Below are positions 34,571 to 47,931 of a DNA stretch of 64,000 nucleotides, piece after piece. Origin of the DNA: Nitrosospira sp. NpAV (lineage in GTDB: Bacteria; Pseudomonadota; Gammaproteobacteria; Burkholderiales; Nitrosomonadaceae). The notes under the pieces are model-generated. The model was given only the letters and a program-made list of their open reading frames with translations, did not search any database and was not told the DNA's origin. A program made the translations under genes and the position numbers. The DNA lies in NCBI RefSeq assembly GCF_000832065.1, contig NZ_JXQM01000003.1, forward strand, positions 310,001 through 374,000, read 5' to 3'. Within the stretch, counting starts at the first letter, position 1. The number at the start of each line of letters is the position of its first letter.

Positions 34571-37141
34571 TTAGCCCGCGACAACCCGCTCATTGATGTA
34601 TCCGAGCGCTTCCTCTACCTGATCGACAAGAATAAGGCACAGTTCGCCCGCTTTCAGGTTGGCGAAAGCGGTATCGATGGCTACGAACTCACCCCGGATT
34701 TCCTTGACATCACGCGTGCGTTTCGCATTCTCCAGGCCTTGCCGCAACAGGCCAAGCACTTCTCCATCGGCGCGTCCTCGCTGGCACTGGTCCTGATAAA
34801 GCACCACCTCATCAAAAGCGTCACCGAGAATCTTGGTCTGTTGGCGAATATCGTCATCGCGCCGGTCGCCGGCCCCGCTAATGACGACTGACCGTCGTTT
34901 AGCTGGCATATTGTCAATCGCGTGCACTAATGCCTGGATGGCATCGGCATTATGACCATAATCGGCAATCAGCGTGGCGCCACGGTGGTTGAAGAGATTA
35001 AAACGCCCCGGCGCGGTTTGCATGTCACTGACAAAAGTAGCCAAACCGGCACGAATGATTTCCCAATCAAGACCCAGTGCCCACCCCGCTCCTGCGGCAG
35101 CCATCACATTATCGATCTGAAATGCGATAGCGCCATTTTGCGTGAGCGGAACTCCACCCAGCGGTATCCGCTGTTCGGCGTCAGCGTCCGACGCAACAAT
35201 CGAGTCGCCGTCAAGGTAGATGACGCGCTTACCTTGGGCGCGATGCTTCGCGATGACCGGATTGTCGGGGTTGCGGGCAAAAAAAGTTACTGACCCGGGG
35301 CAATGGACTGCCATTCCCGCCACAAGTGGGTCGGCCGCATTGAGTACGGCGACTCCGGTCCCGGGCGTAACGTTTTGCACAATGATTCTTTTGACAGCGG
35401 TTAGATCCTCCACCGTATTAACATACGAGAGACCGAGATGATCGCCCATGCCGATGTTGGTGACCACCGCGACACCGCAGCGATCGAATCCCAGTCCTTC
35501 GCGCAACAAACCGCCACGCGCTGTTTCGAACACGGCGGCATCAACGTCAGGGTGCAGCAGCACTTTTTTTGCACTCTTCGGACCACTGCAATCCCCGGTA
35601 TCGATGCGCTGACCATTGATGTAAACTCCATCAGTGCTGGTCATACCGACACGCAGGCCTTGATAACCCAGAATATTGGCGATCAGGCGCACAGTGGTGG
35701 TCTTGCCATTGGTACCGCTCACCGCAATAACCGGGATGCGCGCATCATCGCCATCCTTGAACATATTGGCGATGACTGCTTCCCCCACCGCGCGTCCCTT
35801 GCCGAATGAAGGCTGCAAATGCATGCGGAGACCTGGAGCAGCATTAATTTCTATGATGGCGCCATGTTCCTCCAGGGGGTTCGACACACTGTCGCAGATA
35901 ACATCGATGCCGCAAATGTCGAGACCAATCATTTGCGACGCAGCTTCCACACGCGCGGCAAGAGCGGGGTGCACATCATCGGTCACATCGGTAGCCGTTC
36001 CGCCAGTGGAAAGATTGGCGTTATTGCGGAGAAAAATACTTGCCCCTTTAAGCGGGATGGATTCAGCGGTCAAACCCTGCGTTGCCAGATGACTCAGCGC
36101 AATTTCATCGAAATGAATTTTTGTCAGCGAGTTCGCGTGGCCCTCGCCACGTCGCGGGTCATTATTGACCTGCTCCACCAATTCTCTGACGCTGCGCATG
36201 CCATCGCCGATAACCTCGGGCGGGTTGCGCCACGCAGCCGCAATCAGTTTATTGCCGACGACCAGCATACGGTAGTCGTGACCTGGAATATAACGTTCCA
36301 CCAGCACCTCACCGCTGATCTCCACCGCCATCGCATAAGCCGCTTCCACCTGCTCCCGGCTGGTGAGATTCACGGCTACACCCTTCCCCTGATTACCATC
36401 CTGGGGCTTGACGACCACCGGCCCGCCGATCTCACAAGCGGCAGTCCAGGCGTCCTCCGCATTCGCTACCGGCCGGCCTGATGGCACGGGAATGCCAGCG
36501 GCACTCAGCAGCGTTCGGGTCAATTCCTTATCCTGTGCGATCGATTCAGCCACCGCCCCGGTCAGGCCGGTTTCAGCGGCCTGTATACGCCGCTGCTTAC
36601 TGCCCCAGCCAAATTGCACCATGCTCCCATCAGTCAGACGGCGGAAAGGGATATCTCGTGCGACAGCAGCGCTGACAATCGCACCCGTGCTCGGCCCAAG
36701 GCGTATTTCTTCGTTCAAGGCGCGCAGACGGCGCACCGCATCGGCCAGATCGAAGGCGGTATCCTCGGCCGCAGCGTGGCACAAGGTTTTTGAGAGCTCG
36801 GTGGCAAGTCTGCCCACCGCTTCTTCGCTGTACTCAACAACGACCTGATAAATCCCGGTTTCCAGCGTCTGCATGGTGTGACCGAAGGTTACCAGACACC
36901 CGGCTTGTACTTGCAGGCCCAATATAACGCGCTCAAAAGCGTGCGCCATGGTCAGAGCGCCATGATGATAGGCAGGCCGGAGCAGATCGACTTGTGGAAA
37001 CCGTTCCCGCAGCCGGTCCAGAAAATCCGGTATTCCGACAGGATGGCACTCGGCATCGCTACATGAAACAATAGCTTCTATGGCCGTATGGCGGCTCCAC
37101 AAATTGGGACCGCGCAATGCGCGGATACGCGATACTTTCAT
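34571..37141 (-). CDS. cphA: cyanophycin synthetase CphA
   Basis: 856 residues from the ATG at 37141 (AGGAG eight bases upstream; 37225 is a weaker start). Domains in order: N-domain (1-160); ATP-grasp (about 205-465, including KPQDGNQGKGVAV and EINAAPGLRMHLQPS); Mur-ligase-like domain with P-loop SGTNGKTTTVRL (about 475) and, near the end, ADYGHNADAI and SGAGDRRDDDI. It alternately adds Asp and Arg to make the storage polymer cyanophycin. It is the last gene of the locus, 16 bases after the second ligase gene. Confidence 0.95.
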   Translation of the reverse strand: MKVSRIRALRGPNLWSRHTAIEAIVSCSDAECHPVGIPDFLDRLRERFPQVDLLRPAYHHGALTMAHAFERVILGLQVQAGCLVTFGHTMQTLETGIYQVVVEYSEEAVGRLATELSKTLCHAAAEDTAFDLADAVRRLRALNEEIRLGPSTGAIVSAAVARDIPFRRLTDGSMVQFGWGSKQRRIQAAETGLTGAVAESIAQDKELTRTLLSAAGIPVPSGRPVANAEDAWTAACEIGGPVVVKPQDGNQGKGVAVNLTSREQVEAAYAMAVEISGEVLVERYIPGHDYRMLVVGNKLIAAAWRNPPEVIGDGMRSVRELVEQVNNDPRRGEGHANSLTKIHFDEIALSHLATQGLTAESIPLKGASIFLRNNANLSTGGTATDVTDDVHPALAARVEAASQMIGLDICGIDVICDSVSNPLEEHGAIIEINAAPGLRMHLQPSFGKGRAVGEAVIANMFKDGDDARIPVIAVSGTNGKTTTVRLIANILGYQGLRVGMTSTDGVYINGQRIDTGDCSGPKSAKKVLLHPDVDAAVFETARGGLLREGLGFDRCGVAVVTNIGMGDHLGLSYVNTVEDLTAVKRIIVQNVTPGTGVAVLNAADPLVAGMAVHCPGSVTFFARNPDNPVIAKHRAQGKRVIYLDGDSIVASDADAEQRIPLGGVPLTQNGAIAFQIDNVMAAAGAGWALGLDWEIIRAGLATFVSDMQTAPGRFNLFNHRGATLIADYGHNADAIQALVHAIDNMPAKRRSVVISGAGDRRDDDIRQQTKILGDAFDEVVLYQDQCQRGRADGEVLGLLRQGLENAKRTRDVKEIRGEFVAIDTAFANLKAGELCLILVDQVEEALGYINERVVAG

Positions 37142-37157
37142 TAACCGTTCTCCTGTT

Positions 37158-39485
37158 TTATTCATTCGGAAGCATGGATTCTGGGGCAAGGTTTTTTCTG
37201 TCTTGAATACCCGAGAAATTTTCAATTCCGTTACGTATGAGAGCAGGCGCTATACCGAGCGCCCAAGCAGCGCCCACCGCCGCCAGAACATTCTCGACCT
37301 CCAGCGTCGCAAGCCCTCCTCGCGTGACTGGCACGTCAGCGAGTTTGGCCAGCGTTATTTCACTAGGGCCGGTAACAAGCAGAATGTTTCCCTCACGAAC
37401 GGTCACGGCCCGGTTGCTCCGTATGCCCTCCACATTCTGGGTACCACTCGTGCGATGCGCATTGATGACCGGCAGCTCAGGATCAACACTGAAGTAAATA
37501 ATCTCGCCATTACACAGCGTGGCCATGTCGACGAGCATCGGCTCCCTGGCGTTGAGTACCGCTGCGCCTGCCGGCAGCACGACATCCACCTGGGTACGCA
37601 GAACATCGAAGACCTGTTTCGGCGTCTCGATATCGTGGCGACCATAATGCCGGCTTGTGTCAACGTTGGTAACGACGCCGACCTGACACCAATCGTAAGC
37701 AAGTCCCTCGACCAGAATATTGTCGCCGCTGTTCTCAAAAACCGCCGCTTCGATCGAGCGATTCATCAGAATATTGTTGGCTGACTTCCAATTGGCGTGA
37801 TTGCCCTTATAAACCTGCCTTGGGCCGAGATAAAATCCGTCGCCGCAAGCGAGCCCCGTATGCTGGCCGGTAAGGGCAAGCAACCGCGCGACAAGATGTG
37901 CCACGGTGGTTTTACCATGGCTGCCGGTCACTCCCACGACCGGAATACGGCCGTGGTTATTGTCCGGAAAGAGATGATCGACAATGGCTTTGCCCACGGG
38001 GCGGGGAGTGCCCACAGCAGGTTTAATGTGCATCAGCAGGCTGGGGCCGGCATTGACTTCGACGATTGCGCCACCCTGTTCGGCAAGTGGCCGCGAGATA
38101 TCCTGGGCGACGAGATCGATGCCGGCAATATCCAGTCCGACGATACGAGCTGCGAGGGAAGCGGCAGCGGCAATGCTCGAATGCACCTCGTCAGTGACAT
38201 CGAAAGCATGATTGCCATTCCGCTGAATGAGGACTTCGAGTCCGGCAGGGGGTATCGAGTTGATGGTAAAACCCTGGCGGGCAATCTCCATGATGGTTAC
38301 GCCATCTATGCCGATCAGGTTGAGCGGATGATCTTCAGTTGCTCCGCGGCGCGGATCGGAATTGATCTGATGGCCGATCAAGTCGCTGATGGTAGATTTG
38401 CCGTCACCGGTAACCGACACCGAGTCGCCCCGGTTCGCAGCAACGAGCCGGCCGCCAACGACCAGCAAACGATGCTCGGTGCCCGGAATAAAGCGTTCAA
38501 CCAAAACGCCACTGCCTTGTGCCAATGCCGCATGATAAGCCGGCACGATCTCTTCACGGGTAGTCAACTCAATGAAAACACCGCGCCCATGATTCCCGTC
38601 GCAGGGTTTGATGACGACCGGCACACCGATATCCTGCGCAGCCTCCCACGCATCTTCGGCACTATTGACAATGCGGCCTTCGGGAACATGGACTCCGCAG
38701 GACCGGAGTAATGACTTCGTCAGATCCTTGTCACGCGAGATGCTTTCCGCAATCGCCGGAGTCCGATCGGTTTCGGCTGTCCAGATGCGCTGGCTGCGCG
38801 CCCCGTAGCCGAGTTGCACCAGATTTCCCTTGGCAAGAAGGCGGATATAAGGAATGTTGCGATGGGTGGCGGCCTCGACGATACACGCGGTTGATGGTCC
38901 CAGCCACAGCGAATCGACCATGTCGCGCAGGCGCTCGATGACACCATTGACATCGTAAGGCTCGTTGCGGGGTGGCTGGGTTTCCATCGCCGCCAGCACC
39001 AGCTCACGGGCCGCAAATAAGGCGTTGCGCGCAATATCCTCATGCCAGGCACTGACGGTTACCTTGTAGACGCCGCGCTGAGAAGTTTCACGAGCTCTGC
39101 CGAAGCCGCCAGACATGCCGGCTAGGTTCTGCAGTTCAAGTGTAACGTGTTCGAGAATGTGGCCTGGCCAGGTACCTTCCTTGAGCCGGCGCAGAAAACC
39201 GCCCCGCTCTCCATAACTACAACGGTGTTCGATCAGCGAAGGAAGCCAGGAAGAAAGGCGCTCATAAAATCCCGGAATGGTATCGGAGGGAAAATCTTCG
39301 AGTTCACCAATGTCGACGACTGCCTCGAGTACCGGACGGCAGGTCCAGATGTTGGGTCCGTTAAGATGCCTTATCTCAAGAAATTTGATGTCCTTTTTGC
39401 CGACATAGTCAGTGTTCGAATTCGGGCAGACCGGCATAAAATTATGCAAGAAATGGATTGAAACTGAGTTAAACGCGGTTTGCAT
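37158..39485 (-). CDS. CphA-like second cyanophycin synthetase lacking the C-terminal domain
   Basis: 775 residues (or 759 from the ATG at 39437; neither start has a clear ribosome site). It has the CphA N-domain, the ATP-grasp module (KPCDGNHGRGVFIEL; VEVNAGPSLLMHIKP) and the Mur-ligase P-loop GVTGSHGKTTVAH near 520. It then stops about 125 residues earlier than CphA, after EVENVLAAVGAAWALG, so the C-terminal Mur domain carrying DYGHN is absent. This is the paired, shortened type found beside CphA in several non-cyanobacteria. It probably works with CphA on the same polymer; its exact activity cannot be read here. Confidence 0.9.
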   Translation of the reverse strand: MQTAFNSVSIHFLHNFMPVCPNSNTDYVGKKDIKFLEIRHLNGPNIWTCRPVLEAVVDIGELEDFPSDTIPGFYERLSSWLPSLIEHRCSYGERGGFLRRLKEGTWPGHILEHVTLELQNLAGMSGGFGRARETSQRGVYKVTVSAWHEDIARNALFAARELVLAAMETQPPRNEPYDVNGVIERLRDMVDSLWLGPSTACIVEAATHRNIPYIRLLAKGNLVQLGYGARSQRIWTAETDRTPAIAESISRDKDLTKSLLRSCGVHVPEGRIVNSAEDAWEAAQDIGVPVVIKPCDGNHGRGVFIELTTREEIVPAYHAALAQGSGVLVERFIPGTEHRLLVVGGRLVAANRGDSVSVTGDGKSTISDLIGHQINSDPRRGATEDHPLNLIGIDGVTIMEIARQGFTINSIPPAGLEVLIQRNGNHAFDVTDEVHSSIAAAASLAARIVGLDIAGIDLVAQDISRPLAEQGGAIVEVNAGPSLLMHIKPAVGTPRPVGKAIVDHLFPDNNHGRIPVVGVTGSHGKTTVAHLVARLLALTGQHTGLACGDGFYLGPRQVYKGNHANWKSANNILMNRSIEAAVFENSGDNILVEGLAYDWCQVGVVTNVDTSRHYGRHDIETPKQVFDVLRTQVDVVLPAGAAVLNAREPMLVDMATLCNGEIIYFSVDPELPVINAHRTSGTQNVEGIRSNRAVTVREGNILLVTGPSEITLAKLADVPVTRGGLATLEVENVLAAVGAAWALGIAPALIRNGIENFSGIQDRKNLAPESMLPNE

Positions 39486-40237
39486 GAAATGGTTTACAGA
39501 TTTATCAAATTAATTCTGGAAGTATGTGGACGGATTCCTGTAGAGGTTTTGGATAGTCATTCATATTGAATTCCCCCATCCACGCTAGAGCGGGCTGATA
39601 TTCAACCTGTCCGGTGTGCCCATCTGAATTTTTATTGTTTTGGCTAATGCGGCTCTGCCGCTCATCATGCACGAACAAAGCTTCGCTATTTACCGTGCAA
39701 ACGCTCTCGAAAAATTGGGAATATTCCTGATGATGTAATTTTTTATAATTTTAAAGGCGGAAGGATTGCTTGTATTCGATATCAGGCTGGGAATCGACAA
39801 CAACATAAGCATATGTCATGCCAGATCATTTTTATCTTATAGAACAATAGATTAATTAAGATAGCTTTATCAGATCGGATTAAGAGTGTCGTCACTCATC
39901 GACAATGAGTGCTCAGCTTATTATCAACCAGTTGAAGCATAACCAATATTGCCTGTCTCCAGATGGCGACAGGGGCGATAATTGCTCAAACAGGCATGAG
40001 GAAAAGAACCACGCCGCGGCGTTTCAGGCGATTTGACTATCATCGATTATCGCCAGTTATGAAAATGAAATGGGAAGGCGGCCGTTCTAGCCCGGATATC
40101 TCACCAGACTCGGCAGAAAATTGTCATAAGCGGCATGAATAATGCCATGGGTGAACAGTAACTGATTTGTACGCCAGCCGTCGAGAGCGCCGGCGGGCGC
40201 GTGGCGGCATCTTCCGCGATCCGGCGAAGTATCCGGG
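39486..40237. other. long gene-poor spacer inside the cyanophycin locus
   Basis: About 750 AT-rich bases between the second synthetase and the MITE-like element. It holds small hairpins (ACTCAT-loop-ATGAGT near 39894-39910) and a 12-base inverted repeat, CTAGCCCGGATA at 40087-40098 with its complement at 40230-40241. Between these arms a minus-strand frame ends ...FTHGIIHAAYDNFLPSLVRYPG and may be a gene remnant. No intact gene or known riboswitch pattern is seen; promoters for the synthetases are expected here. Confidence 0.45.
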
Positions 40238-40424
40238 CTAGGGCCTGTTAACACTTATTTCGCACCCGCGACGGTGACGAATTTCATCCAGCACGAGGCA
40301 GGAGCCGCGCGGCGGAGCAGGCCTCCGTAAGCGGCGAGTAACGAAGGGCTGGATGAAATCCGTCCCGTCCCTTTGGGTTGTGCGCAAAAAACGCGGGTGC
40401 GAAATAAGTGTTAACAGGCCCTAG
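40238..40424. mobile_element. MITE-like element with perfect 33-bp inverted repeats
   Basis: CTAGGGCCTGTTAACACTTA at the left edge continues into a 33-base arm (40238-40270) that is an exact inverse of 40392-40424. The outer CTAG on both sides could be a target duplication. An inner arm ATTTCATCCAGC (40281-40292) also pairs exactly with 40348-40359, so most of the element can fold as one long hairpin. It has no open frame. The right CTAG provides the stop codon of the DUF1854 gene. Confidence 0.88.
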
Positions 40425-40894
40425 AGAAACCGGTCCAGAATCTTGCGGCTATGAGAATCAAGCGCAAGCCGATCACGGATCAGGAACTGAATGCCATGAC
40501 TGTCCGCAATCAGCAGGGCCGGTGGAGTGAGGCGGCGAATATCTTCCTCGCCTTTGAGGACAAAGGATGTTTTGCCGCGATCCGTTTCCACGTGCCAAGT
40601 ACTTGGCGTGACAAAACTCGAAACATCGTGAATTCGTCTGATTTCGGGAATGAACTCGCGGCTGGCCAGATCGGCTTCGACCAGCGTACGCAATCCATCG
40701 GGCAAATCGCTCAATTGATCAATCCACGCCAGCTCATGACCATGCTGGCCGATCAGCGCAATACCATAATCCGGGGCAGTGATCGGGAACGCGCGCACGG
40801 GAACGACCCCTTCATGCGCCTCGCCATCCATCCCGGTAAATACCAGCCGCCCGAAGGTATTTCGGCTTAGCCGATAATTCGGTTTATCGGTCAT
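40421..40894 (-). CDS. DUF1854 protein of the cyanophycin locus
   Basis: 157 residues from the ATG at 40894 (MTDKPNYRLSRNTFGRLVF). It matches the DUF1854 family, which regularly lies next to this type of ABC exporter and cyanophycin synthetases; its function is unknown. It has no membrane segment or known catalytic motif. The start overlaps the end of the ABC gene by 11 bases, so the two are translationally coupled. The TAG stop coincides with the edge of the MITE, raising the possibility that the last residues were replaced. Confidence 0.85.
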   Translation of the reverse strand: MTDKPNYRLSRNTFGRLVFTGMDGEAHEGVVPVRAFPITAPDYGIALIGQHGHELAWIDQLSDLPDGLRTLVEADLASREFIPEIRRIHDVSSFVTPSTWHVETDRGKTSFVLKGEEDIRRLTPPALLIADSHGIQFLIRDRLALDSHSRKILDRFL

Positions 40895-43232
40895 CGCGTC
40901 CATCCCCGGCTTTGCGATCAACATCCGGTCTGCGCAAATCGTCCTCAGTATCGACGTTGCGTGCCTGCGCCTGATAGAGACCGTAATAATGGCCTTCCTG
41001 CGCCATCAGTTGAGCATGATTGCCCGTCTCGATGACGCTGCCGCGGTCGAGCACAATCAGCCGGTTGGCGTCGCGCAAGGTGGAAAGACGGTGGGCGATG
41101 GCGATAGTCGTTCGTCCACGCACGAGATTCTCGAGTGCTCTCTGAATTTCTTTTTCGGTCGTTGTATCGACAGAGGAAGTCGCTTCGTCGAGGATCAGAA
41201 TGCGGGGATCGATAAGCAGTGCGCGAGCAATGGATATGCGCTGCCGTTCACCTCCCGAGAGAGCCTGTCCGCGCTCACCGACCAGAGAGTCGTAGCCGTG
41301 TGGCAGGCGCAAGATGAACTCGTGGGCATGGGCGGCACGGGCCGCGGCAATAACTTCCTCCCGCTTTGCATCCGGTTTACCGTAAGCAATGTTCTCGGCG
41401 ATCGTTCCAAAAAACAGGAAGGGCTCCTGAAGCACCAAGCCAATATGCTTGCGGTATTCGACGACCGGTAGCGAGCGAATGTCTACCCCATCCAGCAAAA
41501 TCGCTCCTTCGGTGACATCGTAGAATCGGCAGATCAGATTGACAAGCGTACTCTTGCCCGAACCGCTATGCCCCACAAGGCCGATCATTTCACCTGGCTC
41601 GATGGTCATGTTTATATCGTGTGTCACACTGCGCGTGCCATAACGAAATCCGACGCCGCATAACTCGATACGGCCTTTGACGACAGGCAGATGAACGGGA
41701 TGTACGGGCTCAGGAACGCTGGAGACATGATCGAGGATTTCAAAAATACGTTTGGTACCAGCCGCCGCTTTTTGCGTAAACGAGACAATACGGCTCATCG
41801 AGTCCAACCGCAGATAGAAGCGGCTGATATAGGCAAGAAAGGCGGTGAGCACGCCAACCGTAATTTGGTCTTTCGATACCTGCCAGATGCCGAAAACCCA
41901 TACCACAAGCAACCCGACTTCAGTCAGCAGCGTCACGGTGGGCGTGAACAATGACCAGATCTTGTTGACCCGGTCGTTTACCTCCAGATTCCGGTCGTTT
42001 GCAGCCCGGAAACGTCCTGCCTCGCGCTTCTCCTGGGCAAATGCCTTGACCACGCGTATGCCGGGAATGGTATCGGCAAGCACGCTGGTGACCTCAGCCC
42101 AGACGCGATCGACCTTTTCGAAGCCGGTGCGCAATCTATCGCGTACCAGATGGATCAGCCAGGCGATGATCGGCAGCGGCAGCAGGGTGACCAGCGCGAG
42201 CCAGGGATCGATCGAAATCAGGATGATGATCGTCATGGCTATCATCAGTACATCGGTAGCGAAATCCAGCAAGTGCAAAGACAGAAAAACGTTGAGGCGA
42301 TCGGTTTCCGAGCCGATGCGCGCCATCAGATCGCCAGTGCGCTTTCCGCCGAAATAGGCATGCGAGAGTTTGAGGAGGTGTTGGTAGGTGGCCGTACGCA
42401 GATCGGCGCCGATACGTTCGGAAACCCTTGCCAGCATGTAGGTTCGCGCCCAGCCCAGTCCCCACGCCAGAATGGCGGCACCGAGCAGACCGGTGAGATA
42501 AAAGGTGACAAGGCTCGTATCGATCGGTTTCCCATTCTGATAGGGAATCAGCACATTATCCATCAGCGGCATGGTCATGTAGGGTGGTACCAGCGCCGCT
42601 GCCGTACTGCCTAGCGTCAGCAGAAAACCCGAAAGCAATTGCCACTTGTAGGGTCTGGCAAAACGCCACAGACGAAAAAGTGTCCAGGTCGAAGATGGCT
42701 TAAGTAGTTCTGTCCTGCACGCCGCACACGCTTCCTCCCCCGGCAATAAGGGCGCATCGAGCGTCCTCTGGCACTTGGGACATACAACATGCACGGACGG
42801 CTGCGGCAGCTCTCCGTTAAGCCGGTAAGCCAGTTGCTCTGCAAAATGTTCGGTCAGGCGCCCGGCCGCGATGTCTGCGCCGAAGGTATAACGCCAACGA
42901 GCAAGTTGCGAATCCGCGTCAAGGAGCTCAAGGCTGCCAACGCCGGAATAATCGTGACGAATCAGCATCAATCCTGGCTGGTAAGTCCACTTCCGCCAAG
43001 CAGCGCCCTTCTGATCCGTCCCTGGACTGGCCAATAGGCGCCGAGTGGTCACGATCACCAGGCCCGAAGCAAAATGCAAGTGCGCATCAAGATCAGTTTC
43101 CAGCCAGGCCAGTATTTTTTCCTCGGCAGAAAGCTGCGGCTCGACTTGCGCGACCCAGACGGAAGGCAGGTTTAGCGGTGAGACGCTTGGCAAAACGGCG
43201 GGATCAATAGTGGAAGGCGAAGGGCTGGTCAT
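40884..43232 (-). CDS. ABC exporter of the cyanophycin locus, with zinc-ribbon N-extension
   Basis: 782 residues. Residues 1-180 are an unusual N-terminal cytoplasmic region ending in a zinc ribbon (CPKC at 151-154, CAAC at 169-172). Six transmembrane segments follow (about 195-480), then one nucleotide-binding domain: Walker [15 protein letters not shown], signature ALSGGERQRISIARALL, Walker B ILILDEATSSVD. It resembles lipid or peptide exporters of the MsbA/half-transporter type and would act as a dimer. Gene context ties it to cyanophycin; the cargo is not known. Confidence 0.9.
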   Translation of the reverse strand: MTSPSPSTIDPAVLPSVSPLNLPSVWVAQVEPQLSAEEKILAWLETDLDAHLHFASGLVIVTTRRLLASPGTDQKGAAWRKWTYQPGLMLIRHDYSGVGSLELLDADSQLARWRYTFGADIAAGRLTEHFAEQLAYRLNGELPQPSVHVVCPKCQRTLDAPLLPGEEACAACRTELLKPSSTWTLFRLWRFARPYKWQLLSGFLLTLGSTAAALVPPYMTMPLMDNVLIPYQNGKPIDTSLVTFYLTGLLGAAILAWGLGWARTYMLARVSERIGADLRTATYQHLLKLSHAYFGGKRTGDLMARIGSETDRLNVFLSLHLLDFATDVLMIAMTIIILISIDPWLALVTLLPLPIIAWLIHLVRDRLRTGFEKVDRVWAEVTSVLADTIPGIRVVKAFAQEKREAGRFRAANDRNLEVNDRVNKIWSLFTPTVTLLTEVGLLVVWVFGIWQVSKDQITVGVLTAFLAYISRFYLRLDSMSRIVSFTQKAAAGTKRIFEILDHVSSVPEPVHPVHLPVVKGRIELCGVGFRYGTRSVTHDINMTIEPGEMIGLVGHSGSGKSTLVNLICRFYDVTEGAILLDGVDIRSLPVVEYRKHIGLVLQEPFLFFGTIAENIAYGKPDAKREEVIAAARAAHAHEFILRLPHGYDSLVGERGQALSGGERQRISIARALLIDPRILILDEATSSVDTTTEKEIQRALENLVRGRTTIAIAHRLSTLRDANRLIVLDRGSVIETGNHAQLMAQEGHYYGLYQAQARNVDTEDDLRRPDVDRKAGDGRDDR

Positions 43233-44587: not shown

Positions 44588-45829
44588 TTAAGCTTGGCTC
44601 ATCCCTTGCCTGGTTCCATGTTCCGCTTCCCTGATGTTTTCGAGGGCCATTTGAATGACATGGCGCGGTGCGCCGATATTCATGCGCATAAAGCCGCTGC
44701 CTGCCTCCCCGAACAGTGTGCCGGGACTCATGCCCACGCCGGCTTCATGCACGAAGAAGTGCCTGAGTTGTGCATCATTTATCCTCAATCGAGCAGTGAG
44801 CGCACGGCAATCAAGCCATAGCAGGTAGGTACCCTCCGATTCAATAAGCTGAATGTCCGGGAGATGGGTAGCCAGATACTCCGCTACGTAGTCCCGCGTT
44901 TGCCGGAGATAAATCAGCAATTCATCCAGCCATGCCTCGCCATCTCGGTAGGCTGCCTCGAACGCAACAATACTGAATGGATTGGATGCGCTGACATGCA
45001 TGGCGTCGAATGTCTGGATAAGTGCTTTGCGACACTCCGGATCAGGCACGATCAGCGCAGAAAGATTCAGCCCGGGAATATTGAACGTCTTGCTGGGTGC
45101 GACGGCGGTTACAATATTAACGCTGTCCGCCGATGCTTCCGCCAGCACGGAAAGTACATGATGCCTATTTCCAGGGTAGATCAGATCGGCGTGGATCTCA
45201 TCCGAGAATATCACCAGATCGTGTTTCTTCGCTATTCGCAGAATTTCCTCCAGCTCCTGCTTACTCCACACCCTGCCGACCGGGTTATGCGGTGAACACA
45301 GCAATAGCAGGCGGGCTCCCGCCGCACACTGCTCCAGATGAGCTAGATCTATGGTGTAACGGTTGTTTCCCAGACGCAGTGGATTATATGCCAGTTGTCT
45401 ACCGGTGCCGGTAACGGCTGAGAAAAAAGGAAAATACACGGGGGGCTGTACAATGACCGACTCGCCTGGCTCAGCGAAAGCCATAACAGCGGCATGCAGC
45501 GATGGAACCACACCGGGACACATTACGATCCATTCGCGCCTGACCTCCCAGCCATGGCGGCGCTTCAACCAGTCGATCAGCGAGTCATACAGACTGTCCG
45601 GGTAGAGGGTATAGCCATATACCGGATGCGCGGCGCGTTTCGCAAGCGCCTGGGTCACCGCCGGAGGTGCGGCAAAATCCATGTCCGCTACCCATAGCGG
45701 AATAACTTCTGCTGTGCCGAACGTACTCTGCCGCCCATCATATTTGAGGCTGGCGGTACCGATGCGGTTGATATCGCGGTTGAAATCATGACTGGGAGCA
45801 TCATTGCCACTCAAGCAATTCTCTCCCAC
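44588..45829 (-). CDS. PatB/MalY-type C-S lyase, probable ovothiol sulfoxide lyase OvoB
   Basis: 413 residues, fold-type I PLP enzyme of the MalY/PatB group: substrate loop YGYT (residues 71-74), SPHNPVGRVW, PLP aspartate in FSDEIHADL, and Schiff-base Lys247 in APSKTFNIPGL. It overlaps the end of ovoA by 19 bases and begins with GTG, an arrangement that supports translational coupling. In known ovothiol pathways a PLP lyase cleaves the cysteine-histidine sulfoxide made by OvoA; context makes that role likely, but cystathionine beta-lyase activity is the alternative. Confidence 0.85.
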   Translation of the reverse strand: MGENCLSGNDAPSHDFNRDINRIGTASLKYDGRQSTFGTAEVIPLWVADMDFAAPPAVTQALAKRAAHPVYGYTLYPDSLYDSLIDWLKRRHGWEVRREWIVMCPGVVPSLHAAVMAFAEPGESVIVQPPVYFPFFSAVTGTGRQLAYNPLRLGNNRYTIDLAHLEQCAAGARLLLLCSPHNPVGRVWSKQELEEILRIAKKHDLVIFSDEIHADLIYPGNRHHVLSVLAEASADSVNIVTAVAPSKTFNIPGLNLSALIVPDPECRKALIQTFDAMHVSASNPFSIVAFEAAYRDGEAWLDELLIYLRQTRDYVAEYLATHLPDIQLIESEGTYLLWLDCRALTARLRINDAQLRHFFVHEAGVGMSPGTLFGEAGSGFMRMNIGAPRHVIQMALENIREAEHGTRQGMSQA

Positions 45830-47931
45830 ATAGTCATTTCTGAAAGCGTGTGCTGAAATTTCCGCCGGGTTTCACGGATTACAAATGGAACTTCCTGCGG
45901 GCCTTTAATCAGCTTGAAATGGCTGCCCAGGATCTCTTTCAGGCCATCCAGGGTACCAAAGCTTTCTCCATCGCGCTTGAATCCACCAATCCATGCTTCC
46001 TTTTTCGTATGCTCCTCCAGCCACGTATAAGGCGAGGCGATCATCAACACCCCCCCCAGGTTAAGCCGCGTATGAATGGTCGAGAGGAGTTTGGCCGGAT
46101 CGTATAGACGATCGATCAGATTAGCCGCGAGGATTAAGTCATAACCGCTGAAAAGGCTTTTGAGATTACAGGCATCGCCCTGGTAAAACCTTACTTTATG
46201 CTTGACGGCATCCAGGCCAAGACCCGTCAGGGTACGTTCCTTATAAAAAACCAGATCACCTTCATCCGTCAGCGTATAGCGCAGCACGCCCTGGCCTGCA
46301 AGCTGGACACCCTGACCGATAAAGCGGGCAGAGAAATCGATACCGGTGACATCGTCGAAATGCCGCGCCAGTTCGAAAGTGGCGCGTCCCGAAGCACAGC
46401 CAAGATCAAGCGCTTTATGCGCCGGTTTATCGCCCATGGCTGCGATAGCGAGTTCAGCCAGAGCCTTCGGGAAGTTGGGAACCTCAAAATATTCATCCCC
46501 ATAATGAAACTCGGCGTACTCCGAGAGCAGCTTATCCGTTTCGTAATGCGAATCATGCTGAACAGCAGCAGTGTCGGCCACCACATAGCGAAACCCGGTA
46601 TGCTGAAAAAAATGACGGCGAAAAGCATAACGGGCACTCTTGAGCGACTCGTTGCCACATGAAATCCACGAGCCCCCCTTCATGAGATTATGCCGTCCAT
46701 CGAATGTTGGTGTAGTGAAATCGTCGTAATGTGGATGGATATCGAAGCCCTCGAACGGATAAATCGGCGTTTCGGTCCATTGCCAGACGTTACCGGCCAC
46801 ATCGTAGAATTCCCCTTGAGGAAACTCATTGACGGGATGGCTGGAAGCGGAGTGGTCAAGATGAATATTGGCGGCCGCTGGTTCGGCGTGTGGAATCTCC
46901 GACAACCCGGCTACGTCATAGAGCCGGTACCACTCATCCTCTGTCGGCAATCTGAACGGTTGGCCGGTTGTCGCAGCTTTCCAGTTACAGAAGGCTTTAG
47001 CCTCATGATAGTTCACTTCCACCGGCCAATCCCATGGCATCGGTATTTCTTCGGTCATCAGGCGCAGCCGCCACTCGCTACCATGTTTGCTCCAGAAAGT
47101 GGGGTAGCCCGCCTGGGTATGACGTTGCCATGCACGGCCCTCCTCTTCCCAACAACTCTCCATGCCATAACCATTAGCCTCGACAAAAGCCAGAAATTCC
47201 TGGTTGCTCACCAGGTATTTGCCAGCCTGGAATGCCGCGACTTCCGCACTATGACGGCCATATTCATTGTCCCACCCGTAGACGGGATCGGCCTTGCTTT
47301 TTCCCAGGGAAACCACGCCCGCCGGCACGTCGATTAATTGATTTTGTGGCGCCCGGCCGGATTTGCGGCAAGGCTCCCATGCAGGGTGGGGTCTGACGTG
47401 TTCAAGCGCATGCTGCCGGATGAGTACCGAAGACGTTTCCAGATGGATACGCTCGTGCTCGATACCCATTAGAATAGTCCACCAGGGATTGTCCCAACCA
47501 ATCGGCAGCGTCAGCGGCGTTTCGCTGATGAGCCGGTCGACCATGCTGCGAATGGCGTTGCGGTAGGTTCGCACCTCTTCAACGGACGGCCAGTCGTAAT
47601 GAGTGGTATTCAGGTCGTCCCAGCTCATCTCGTCGACGCCGACCGCGAACATGGATTCCAGCTTGGGATTGATTCGTTCCGTAATCAATCCCGCAAGCAG
47701 CAATTTGTTGGCGAAGAAGGTTGCGGTATGACCCAGGTAGAAAATTAGCGGGTGCCGCAACGATATCGGTTTTTTGAAATAGGCTTCATCGCCATGCAGC
47801 GTTTCGAAAAGCTGCTCGTAGCGGTCCAGTGTGGCATGAAAATAGGCCCGTATTTCCTCACGCTTTGCAGCAACATCCTCACCGGATAGCGTGGGACTTC
47901 TTTGGAAAATCAATTTTGGCATAGAACGCAT
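45811..47931 (-). CDS. ovoA: ovothiol synthase OvoA (sulfoxide synthase + N-methyltransferase)
   Basis: 706 residues: a DinB-like N-domain with iron ligands His68 (YLGHTA) and the H-x3-H-x-E motif HERIHLE at 159-165, a formylglycine-enzyme-like domain (about 200-440; NEFPQGEFYDVAGNVWQW and GGSW), and a C-terminal SAM methyltransferase (LDLGCASGRATFELA near 500). It joins cysteine and histidine at C5 of the imidazole to give the sulfoxide; the methyltransferase later methylates the imidazole. The fused form matches complete OvoA proteins and would suffice, with OvoB, to make ovothiol A. Confidence 0.93.
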   Translation of the reverse strand: MRSMPKLIFQRSPTLSGEDVAAKREEIRAYFHATLDRYEQLFETLHGDEAYFKKPISLRHPLIFYLGHTATFFANKLLLAGLITERINPKLESMFAVGVDEMSWDDLNTTHYDWPSVEEVRTYRNAIRSMVDRLISETPLTLPIGWDNPWWTILMGIEHERIHLETSSVLIRQHALEHVRPHPAWEPCRKSGRAPQNQLIDVPAGVVSLGKSKADPVYGWDNEYGRHSAEVAAFQAGKYLVSNQEFLAFVEANGYGMESCWEEEGRAWQRHTQAGYPTFWSKHGSEWRLRLMTEEIPMPWDWPVEVNYHEAKAFCNWKAATTGQPFRLPTEDEWYRLYDVAGLSEIPHAEPAAANIHLDHSASSHPVNEFPQGEFYDVAGNVWQWTETPIYPFEGFDIHPHYDDFTTPTFDGRHNLMKGGSWISCGNESLKSARYAFRRHFFQHTGFRYVVADTAAVQHDSHYETDKLLSEYAEFHYGDEYFEVPNFPKALAELAIAAMGDKPAHKALDLGCASGRATFELARHFDDVTGIDFSARFIGQGVQLAGQGVLRYTLTDEGDLVFYKERTLTGLGLDAVKHKVRFYQGDACNLKSLFSGYDLILAANLIDRLYDPAKLLSTIHTRLNLGGVLMIASPYTWLEEHTKKEAWIGGFKRDGESFGTLDGLKEILGSHFKLIKGPQEVPFVIRETRRKFQHTLSEMTMWERIA

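Follow-up and report, generated by a model that had tools for sequence, protein, structure and literature searches.

Among the closest described counterparts of the genes considered here is the cyanophycin synthetase CphA1 (SuCphA1, 7lg5; TeCphA1, 7wac), in which the ATP-grasp (G) and Mur-ligase (M) sites are in many cases accompanied by a third site, a zinc endo-cyanophycinase with the motif Cx19HxxEH in the N domain (PMC9262961). Two full-length or near full-length homologues of this enzyme, cphA' and cphA, are encoded in a 64,000-nucleotide stretch of contig NZ_JXQM01000003.1 of Nitrosospira sp. NpAV, called the window below, whose host is probably an ammonia oxidiser. They lie together with the genes of an ATP-binding cassette (ABC) exporter and of a DUF1854 protein, which will be referred to as the pair. 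While SuCphA1 holds three active sites in one protein, in the window these appear to be split over two, with Gln at the CphA position that corresponds to H267.

The gene association itself is already known. The NCBIfam families NF052233 and NF052234 are named "cyanophycin metabolism-associated" ABC transporter and DUF1854 family protein, respectively, and the window proteins lie over both cut-offs; these names express association only, and mechanism, division of sites and exclusion of cyanophycinase are outside them. In print, the association is found without DUF1854 in the activated-sludge 'Group 1' cphA cluster, which like the window has two cphA genes and an ABC transporter and no cphB (PMC10687191). 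That work covers Accumulibacter, which is also among the best 80 of 559 DUF1854 loci considered below; the available part of its text does not name DUF1854 or compare the active sites, and it stresses flanking insertion sequences and a possible composite transposon. Paired synthetase genes without cyanophycinase have also been noted (PMC5178258, PMC5670224), and in the betaproteobacteria, the largest group of CphA1 carriers with 903 genomes, the scarcity of cyanophycinase has been termed unanticipated (PMC10206079).

Two further systems are close to the one in the window. CphA2 shares with cphA' a reduced M domain and a retained ATP-grasp core; it is described as lacking the N-domain motif (PMC9262961), which cphA' retains, and it is by this description that the two are set apart. 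The loci of the cphA-cphB-iaaA type (in genomes G339, G412, G443 and G471, and a second locus of G240) contain a synthetase, as the window does, and have cyanophycinase and an IaaA-type gene side by side; the exporter pair was not found in them. In G378, also of this type, the full synthetase is on another contig. Among Creative Commons-licensed PMC papers none was found that names DUF1854, with cyanophycin or by itself, and the text of PMC9262961 makes no mention of proteobacteria, a paralog or two copies. What is new within these searches is the co-occurrence of DUF1854 with CphA, the apparent alternation of the pair with cyanophycinase, and the split of the sites over two proteins.

The four genes and their co-occurrence

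The four genes lie within 34571-43232 of the window, all on the minus strand, and these positions of the preliminary description could be reproduced:

40884..43232, minus strand: ABC exporter, 782 amino acids; NF052233, PF00664, PF00005
40421..40894, minus strand: DUF1854 protein, 157 amino acids; NF052234, PF08909; start codon inside the exporter gene
37158..39485, minus strand: cphA', 775 amino acids from the first ATG; CphA1-like, with the zinc endo-cyanophycinase motif, ATP-grasp, and a truncated, degenerate Mur-ligase domain
34571..37141, minus strand: cphA, 856 amino acids; ATP-grasp and Mur-ligase residues retained except for Gln at the H267 position; N-domain cutting motif gone

The exporter scores 1396 bits against NF052233 (curated cut-off 880), and the DUF1854 protein 239.8 bits against NF052234 (cut-off 150) and 177.2 bits against PF08909 (cut-off 26.8). 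For the CphA family TIGR02068, with a cut-off of 850 bits, cphA reaches 967.8 bits; cphA', whose similarity to CphA1 starts near residue 33, stays under it at 743.8 bits and has no Mur_ligase_C match, while some full-length cphA' proteins of other genomes exceed it (G327, for example, at 927 bits). Among the best 80 of 559 loci, the nearest relatives of the DUF1854 protein are from two Nitrosospira, with 79 and 76% identity, and an Accumulibacter metagenome-assembled genome and one further bin also have DUF1854 proteins with 76% identity to that of the window.

The start of cphA is most likely the ATG at 37141, which is preceded by AGGAG and lies 16 bases past the cphA' stop; the start given by the open reading frame program, TTG 37225, yields a longer frame. 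With the former start, cphA' and cphA thus look co-transcribed. The exporter and DUF1854 genes overlap by 11 bases, as first described, provided that DUF1854 starts at ATG 40894 (with the alternative ATG 40924 the overlap is 41 bases), and this start-stop overlap suggests that their translation is coupled. The two proteins may also form a physical complex.

The distribution of these genes was followed in a phylum sample of 299 genomes and an order sample of 200 genomes of the window's order, all at least 90% complete. With 13 pair genomes in common, the samples contain 75 distinct pair genomes. The CphA searches in both samples and the exporter search scored the three or four best first-look candidates per genome; the exporter family was searched in the phylum sample and judged elsewhere from loci with DUF1854. 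A further set consists of the best 80 of 559 confirmed DUF1854 loci from genome contigs, and it therefore leans to close relatives.

In the phylum sample, DUF1854 and the exporter match the identical 18 of 299 genomes, and all of these have CphA over the cut-off; CphA is present in 22 genomes of the sample. DUF1854 occurs in 70/200 genomes of the order sample, all of them within the 76/200 that have a CphA-family match at E ≤ 1e-100. Of these 70 genomes, 68 are over the CphA cut-off; of the two that are under it, G329 has cphA' as the only CphA homologue found and G313 has a full-length cphA split over two frames. A CphA-family gene is thus present in 75/75 distinct survey genomes with DUF1854 (73 over the cut-off). 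In the further set, neither cphA nor cphA' is present in the fetched flank of 7/80 loci, in some cases through a contig end; these seven genomes all have CphA elsewhere, six of them two homologues, and in one (L115) the pair and the synthetases are far apart on one chromosome. The exporter stands alongside DUF1854 in 78/80 loci, and the two others (L105 and L142) start within 600 bases of a contig end. No DUF1854 gene without any CphA-family gene was found among the 75 survey genomes and the seven flank-negative genomes, and DUF1854 had no match in plasmids. The control genome, Sulfolobus acidocaldarius, gave an NF052234 match below the cut-off in every search with this model.

All four genes are together in 17/18 pair loci of the phylum sample, the window counted, and the grouping is therefore beyond chance. 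The 18th locus (G117) has one CphA only and is interrupted by a contig end that cuts this gene. It is important to note that G117 is the sole pair genome outside the order, the only one of 48 in its class, and 8% contaminated; it is counted among the 75 pair genomes and not relied on. Within the window's order the four-gene variant is widespread (70/200 genomes). The preliminary description had tied the exporter and DUF1854 functionally to the cyanophycin genes, a view that would suffer if the pair were commonly found without them. Given the 75/75 and 7/7 co-occurrence, the survey did not encounter this situation, and the functional tie is strengthened.

Division of the CphA1 active sites

The residue counts below refer to 86 cphA' and 85 cphA proteins of at least 650 amino acids; four shorter cphA' fragments, the CphA of G117 and all CphAs of cyanophycinase-type loci are left aside. 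The cutting motif, as defined in PMC9262961, is placed as follows in the window:

39147..39221, minus strand: Cx19HxxEH motif of cphA' (C89, H109, E112, H113), equivalent to C59, H79, E82 and H83 of CphA1

This motif is present in 17/17 cphA' and 0/17 partner cphA of 17 pair loci, and in a second set in 73/73 cphA' and 0/68 cphA. All four zinc-site residues (C59, H79, E82, H83) are retained in 86/86 cphA', together with H57, F67, R70, E87 and R100. The ATP-grasp core of cphA' is preserved as well; the ATP, Mg2+ and acylphosphate residues K220, K261, R309, D431 and E450 are found in 86/86, and H267 in 85/86. The residues R323, N394 and R458 are assigned to the incoming Asp, with R458 contacting its alpha-carboxylate (PMC9427784). 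In cphA', the R323 position is G or S and the R458 position L, both in 86/86, and the NLSTGG loop, which contains N394, is shortened in 17/17, with its motif gone in 69/69 of the second set.

The Mur-ligase domain is the least conserved part of cphA', with a mean pairwise identity of 0.52 compared to 0.67 for the N and 0.70 for the G domain, and the window protein is without the C-terminal Mur-ligase lid. Some copies are full length (870-890 amino acids), and DHLG is retained in 14/69. The loss of the Mur-ligase site is therefore usual and not universal. The preliminary description had taken cphA' for a second synthetase. The sequence speaks against this assignment, as the Asp-adding residues are lost, the Arg-adding ones are lost in most copies, and what is retained is the polymer-cutting motif.

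The partner cphA retains K220, K261, R309, R323, N394, S396, D431, E450, R458, D585 and H586 in 85/85, and conservation in it is lowest in the N domain (mean pairwise identity 0.625). Taken at the residue level, the three active sites of CphA1 thus appear to be divided, the cutting site going to cphA' and the Asp-recognition and Arg-ligase residues to cphA. This division names a candidate cutter within the same cluster and makes the question of the missing cyanophycinase testable.

In a midpoint-rooted tree of 83 sequences, selected among those retrieved, 38 cphA' form one clade (support 1.0) and 38 pair-type cphA form another (0.853). The split between them is therefore old and single. As the classical CphAs group with cphA, the tree does not date the duplication. 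The single CphA of G117, which stands alongside the pair and has an intact N motif, may resemble the state before the split, with the contamination of that genome to be kept in mind.

Pair loci and cyanophycinase loci

We now turn our attention to cyanophycinase, which was searched with the family TIGR02069 in every CphA genome of the two samples (22 from the phylum and 63 more from the order). That no cyanophycinase is in view in the window, as first described, extends to the whole assembly (G000), which has no match at E ≤ 0.001. The CphA genomes of the order that have no pair (G339, G378, G402, G412, G443 and G471) have cyanophycinase in 6/6 cases, with 233-251 bits, and those elsewhere in the phylum (G083, G086, G218 and G239) in 4/4, adjoining cphA. 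Among the 70 pair genomes of the order sample, five are over the cut-off (G240, G320, G362, G391 and G483) and four more have weaker matches (G310, G368, G401 and G457); of the five pair genomes unique to the phylum sample none is over it, and G274 has a weak match. Where a pair genome has an over-cut-off cyanophycinase, this is more than 180 kilobases (kb) from the pair locus or on a different contig.

A similar distribution is seen for PF01112, the broader family to which the IaaA-type genes belong, with 6/6 pair-free CphA genomes and 19/70 pair genomes of the order sample having a match. In all 19 pair genomes the gene is separated from DUF1854 by 75 kb or more, or is on a different contig. 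For the isoaspartyl dipeptidase, 51/70 pair genomes gave no PF01112 match, IadA not having been searched. Conversely, the neighbourhoods of CphA or cyanophycinase genes at pair-free loci (12 regions, 11 genomes) gave no homologue of the exporter or of DUF1854.

The two kinds of locus hence look like alternatives, and the exporter pair may stand where the recycling branch otherwise does. The departure from the textbook cyanophycin cycle that had been proposed for this locus is supported, since the pair loci have neither cyanophycinase nor IaaA-type genes, and most pair genomes lack them too. It is important to point out that the exclusion rests on few independent lineages, because five of the six pair-free genomes of the order belong to one genus (g215); further cases are G083, G086, G218 and G239 elsewhere in the phylum and the second locus of G240.

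G240 has both systems (L076, L063); one locus is of the cyanophycinase type, with two CphAs and an IaaA-type gene, and another, distinct from it, is of the pair type. In seven cyanophycinase-type regions (L078, L079, L169, L170, L171, L172 and L173) a second, weaker CphA homologue of about 570-720 amino acids, possibly Mur-ligase-like, adjoins cphA.

Possible roles of the four proteins and surroundings of the genes

The exporter consists of a pleckstrin-homology (PH)-like N-terminal domain, two CxxC pairs that resemble a zinc ribbon, and MsbA-like transmembrane and ATPase domains. The Walker A, signature, Walker B and H-loop residues are invariant across 18 aligned exporters. The extension is placed as follows:

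42675..43166, minus strand: exporter N-terminal extension, residues 23-186; PH-like to about residue 140, CxxC at 151/154 and 169/172

AlphaFold2 models this region with a mean predicted local distance difference test (pLDDT) score of 90.2. Its best Foldseek matches are the bacterial PH domains 3hsa and 3dcx (E 7e-4 to 1.5e-3), with a template modelling (TM) score of about 0.43 by query length, and the four Cys of the CxxC pairs are at least 90% conserved in 56 sequences. The DUF1854 model has a pLDDT of 88.9 and a predicted TM score of 0.62; a fold search in the PDB gave no convincing match (best E 4.9e-3, TM about 0.2), and a profile comparison of DUF1854 with the exporter N-terminal region, with a probability of 5%, showed no relation.

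On balance, we lean tentatively towards a mechanism in which cphA builds the polymer, cphA' cuts it, and the exporter pair moves the short pieces out. CphA would extend the chain at its ATP-grasp site and add Arg at its Mur-ligase site. The zinc site of CphA' would then convert the chains into short (beta-Asp-Arg)n pieces, which would serve both as primers and as product, and the MsbA-like exporter with its PH-like extension, together with its partner DUF1854, would take these pieces across the inner membrane. Cutting and export would in this way stand in for the recycling branch of cyanophycinase plus dipeptidase. A precedent for action in trans is that SuCphA1 with dead G and M sites renders TmCphA1 primer-independent (PMC9262961). 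Three steps of this scheme are inferred, namely cutting in trans by CphA', a part for this cutting beyond that in priming, and the oligomer as the exporter substrate.

Export is favoured by the exporter fold, by the missing recycling branch, and by the report that with the native Ralstonia eutropha genes cyanophycin was undetected in R. eutropha or Escherichia coli (Adames 2013, cited in PMC8560796 and PMC11362209). The MsbA-like exporter also lends plausibility to the earlier proposal, in which the polymer or its peptides would cross a membrane or be attached to one. In CphA1, synthesis and cutting are not separately tunable by expression since both are in one protein (PMC9262961); cphA and cphA', unlike CphA1, would place them in two. 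If export takes place, many nitrifiers and phosphorus-accumulating bacteria for which storage of cyanophycin nitrogen is assumed may instead release it.

A number of observations weigh against this mechanism. The position of the catalytic H267 is Gln in 85/85 pair-type cphA (Q279 in the window, in the numbering of the longer frame), and H267A inactivates the G site of SuCphA1 (PMC9262961); cphA is therefore a candidate polymerase. Gln is also found at this position in the two cphB-linked CphAs of G240, and thus need not abolish activity. The cutting motif as such is gone from cphA, with single residues left, namely His at the H79 position in 74/85 and Glu at the E82 position in 59/85, and N-domain cutting by SuCphA1 is reported to be slow (PMC9262961). 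The window genome, in which cyanophycinase was not found, also has one match to PF01112, a family broader than IaaA, outside the window and 76 kb from DUF1854.

Further difficulties come from the surroundings of the pair and from the literature. In 98 loci, with the recurring clusters unannotated, nothing was recognised as an adaptor, as a channel of the outer membrane or as an outside peptidase; the largest of these (60 loci) looks like antisense shadow reading frames of the exporter, followed by a family of 447 amino acids in 26 loci and a third cluster in 15. A review lists Bordetella among the genera containing cyanophycin and states that Nitrosomonas and Ralstonia have extracellular cyanophycinase (PMC8560796), and a genome paper assumes cyanophycin storage in Gallionellaceae (PMC10734482). 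Moreover, the assumption that cphA' degrades an intracellular store fits almost as well, leaving the exporter unexplained. Neither it nor the export mechanism accounts for a strictly conserved ATP-grasp core of cphA' that appears unable to receive Asp.

This storage alternative, which we regard as somewhat unlikely, has CphA making granules and CphA' acting as the missing betaproteobacterial cyanophycinase under separate regulation, with the exporter pair in an ancillary role such as granule tethering or the shedding of surplus peptides or Arg. It agrees with the fact that cphA' alone of the four proteins has a known cyanophycin-cutting motif, with full conservation, and with the finding of cyanophycinase in only 2.8% of the 903 betaproteobacterial CphA1 genomes, for which unknown isozymes have been suggested (PMC10206079). 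An IaaA-type gene is at hand in the 19/70 pair genomes mentioned above, that of the window included; the other 51/70 are without one, with the said limit as to IadA. Storage leaves the constant presence of exporter and DUF1854 without a reason, no polymer was obtained from the R. eutropha genes (PMC8560796), and the N site of SuCphA1 is not only slow, but granule chains are reported to be largely stable to it (PMC9262961).

Another option, which we consider unlikely, is that CphA' merely primes a primer-dependent CphA. Recycling of the polymer would then fall to an enzyme that has escaped recognition, and the exporter pair would serve some other compound connected with nitrogen or arginine surplus. 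In its favour, the motif is absent from all cphA (0/17 and 0/68), as it is from the primer-dependent TmCphA1, and priming of TmCphA1 in trans by SuCphA1 mutants has been demonstrated (PMC9262961). The exclusion between the pair and cyanophycinase loci would then be unexplained, and likewise the conserved ATP-grasp core of cphA'.

The latter feature is the starting point for a reading that we find quite doubtful, in which there is no storage at all. The product would be a short beta-Asp-Arg oligopeptide. After cutting, CphA' would attach some other acceptor to the C terminus of the chain, which would then be secreted; this is suggested because the ATP-grasp core of cphA' is conserved while the Asp-receiving residues are gone. 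It would mean that a repurposed synthetase pair makes a secreted nonribosomal peptide in ammonia oxidisers and many other betaproteobacteria.

A role of CphA' as a synthetase of the CphA2 type, which would join beta-Asp-Arg dipeptides into polymer again, is improbable. The retained ATP, Mg2+ and acylphosphate residues would fit, and truncated cphA' such as that of the window lack the M lid, as does CphA2 (PMC9427784). The N-domain motif, described as missing from CphA2 (PMC9262961), is present in 86/86 cphA', a comparison made by description; the R458 position is Leu in all of them, and 65/70 pair genomes have no over-cut-off cyanophycinase to supply the dipeptides. Finally, the possibility that the exporter/DUF1854 pair is an unrelated neighbour, to which only the cases where it does not adjoin CphA (such as L115) lend anything, can be dismissed as extremely improbable in view of the 75/75 and 7/7 co-occurrence, which includes the non-adjacent cases.

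The gap between DUF1854 and cphA' amounts to 935 bases and holds two abutting palindromic elements that resemble miniature inverted-repeat transposable elements (MITEs):

40238..40424, no strand: MITE-like element 1, 187 base pairs; perfect 33-nucleotide inverted terminal repeats that end in CTAG; its end runs into the DUF1854 stop codon
40087..40241, no strand: MITE-like element 2; 22-nucleotide inverted repeats, 82% complementary; abuts element 1

Further matches in the genome are, for element 1, a single near-full copy (C253) and three stretches of about 160 bases, and for element 2 partial ones only. A scan of 39400-40500 gave no promoter-like sites, and one terminator-like site compared to 1.0 expected by chance. 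The window, with its one-strand order, differs from the remaining 17 phylum-sample pair loci, which are divergent, and a local inversion via a MITE-like element was considered as the origin of this order. Among the 80 further loci, 30 are one-strand, 37 divergent and 13 incomplete; the one-strand layout is thus a common alternative, and the inversion idea was dropped.

Outside the locus, positions 45811-47931 of the window encode a protein of 706 amino acids, which may resemble an OvoA-type sulfoxide synthase fused to a methyltransferase.

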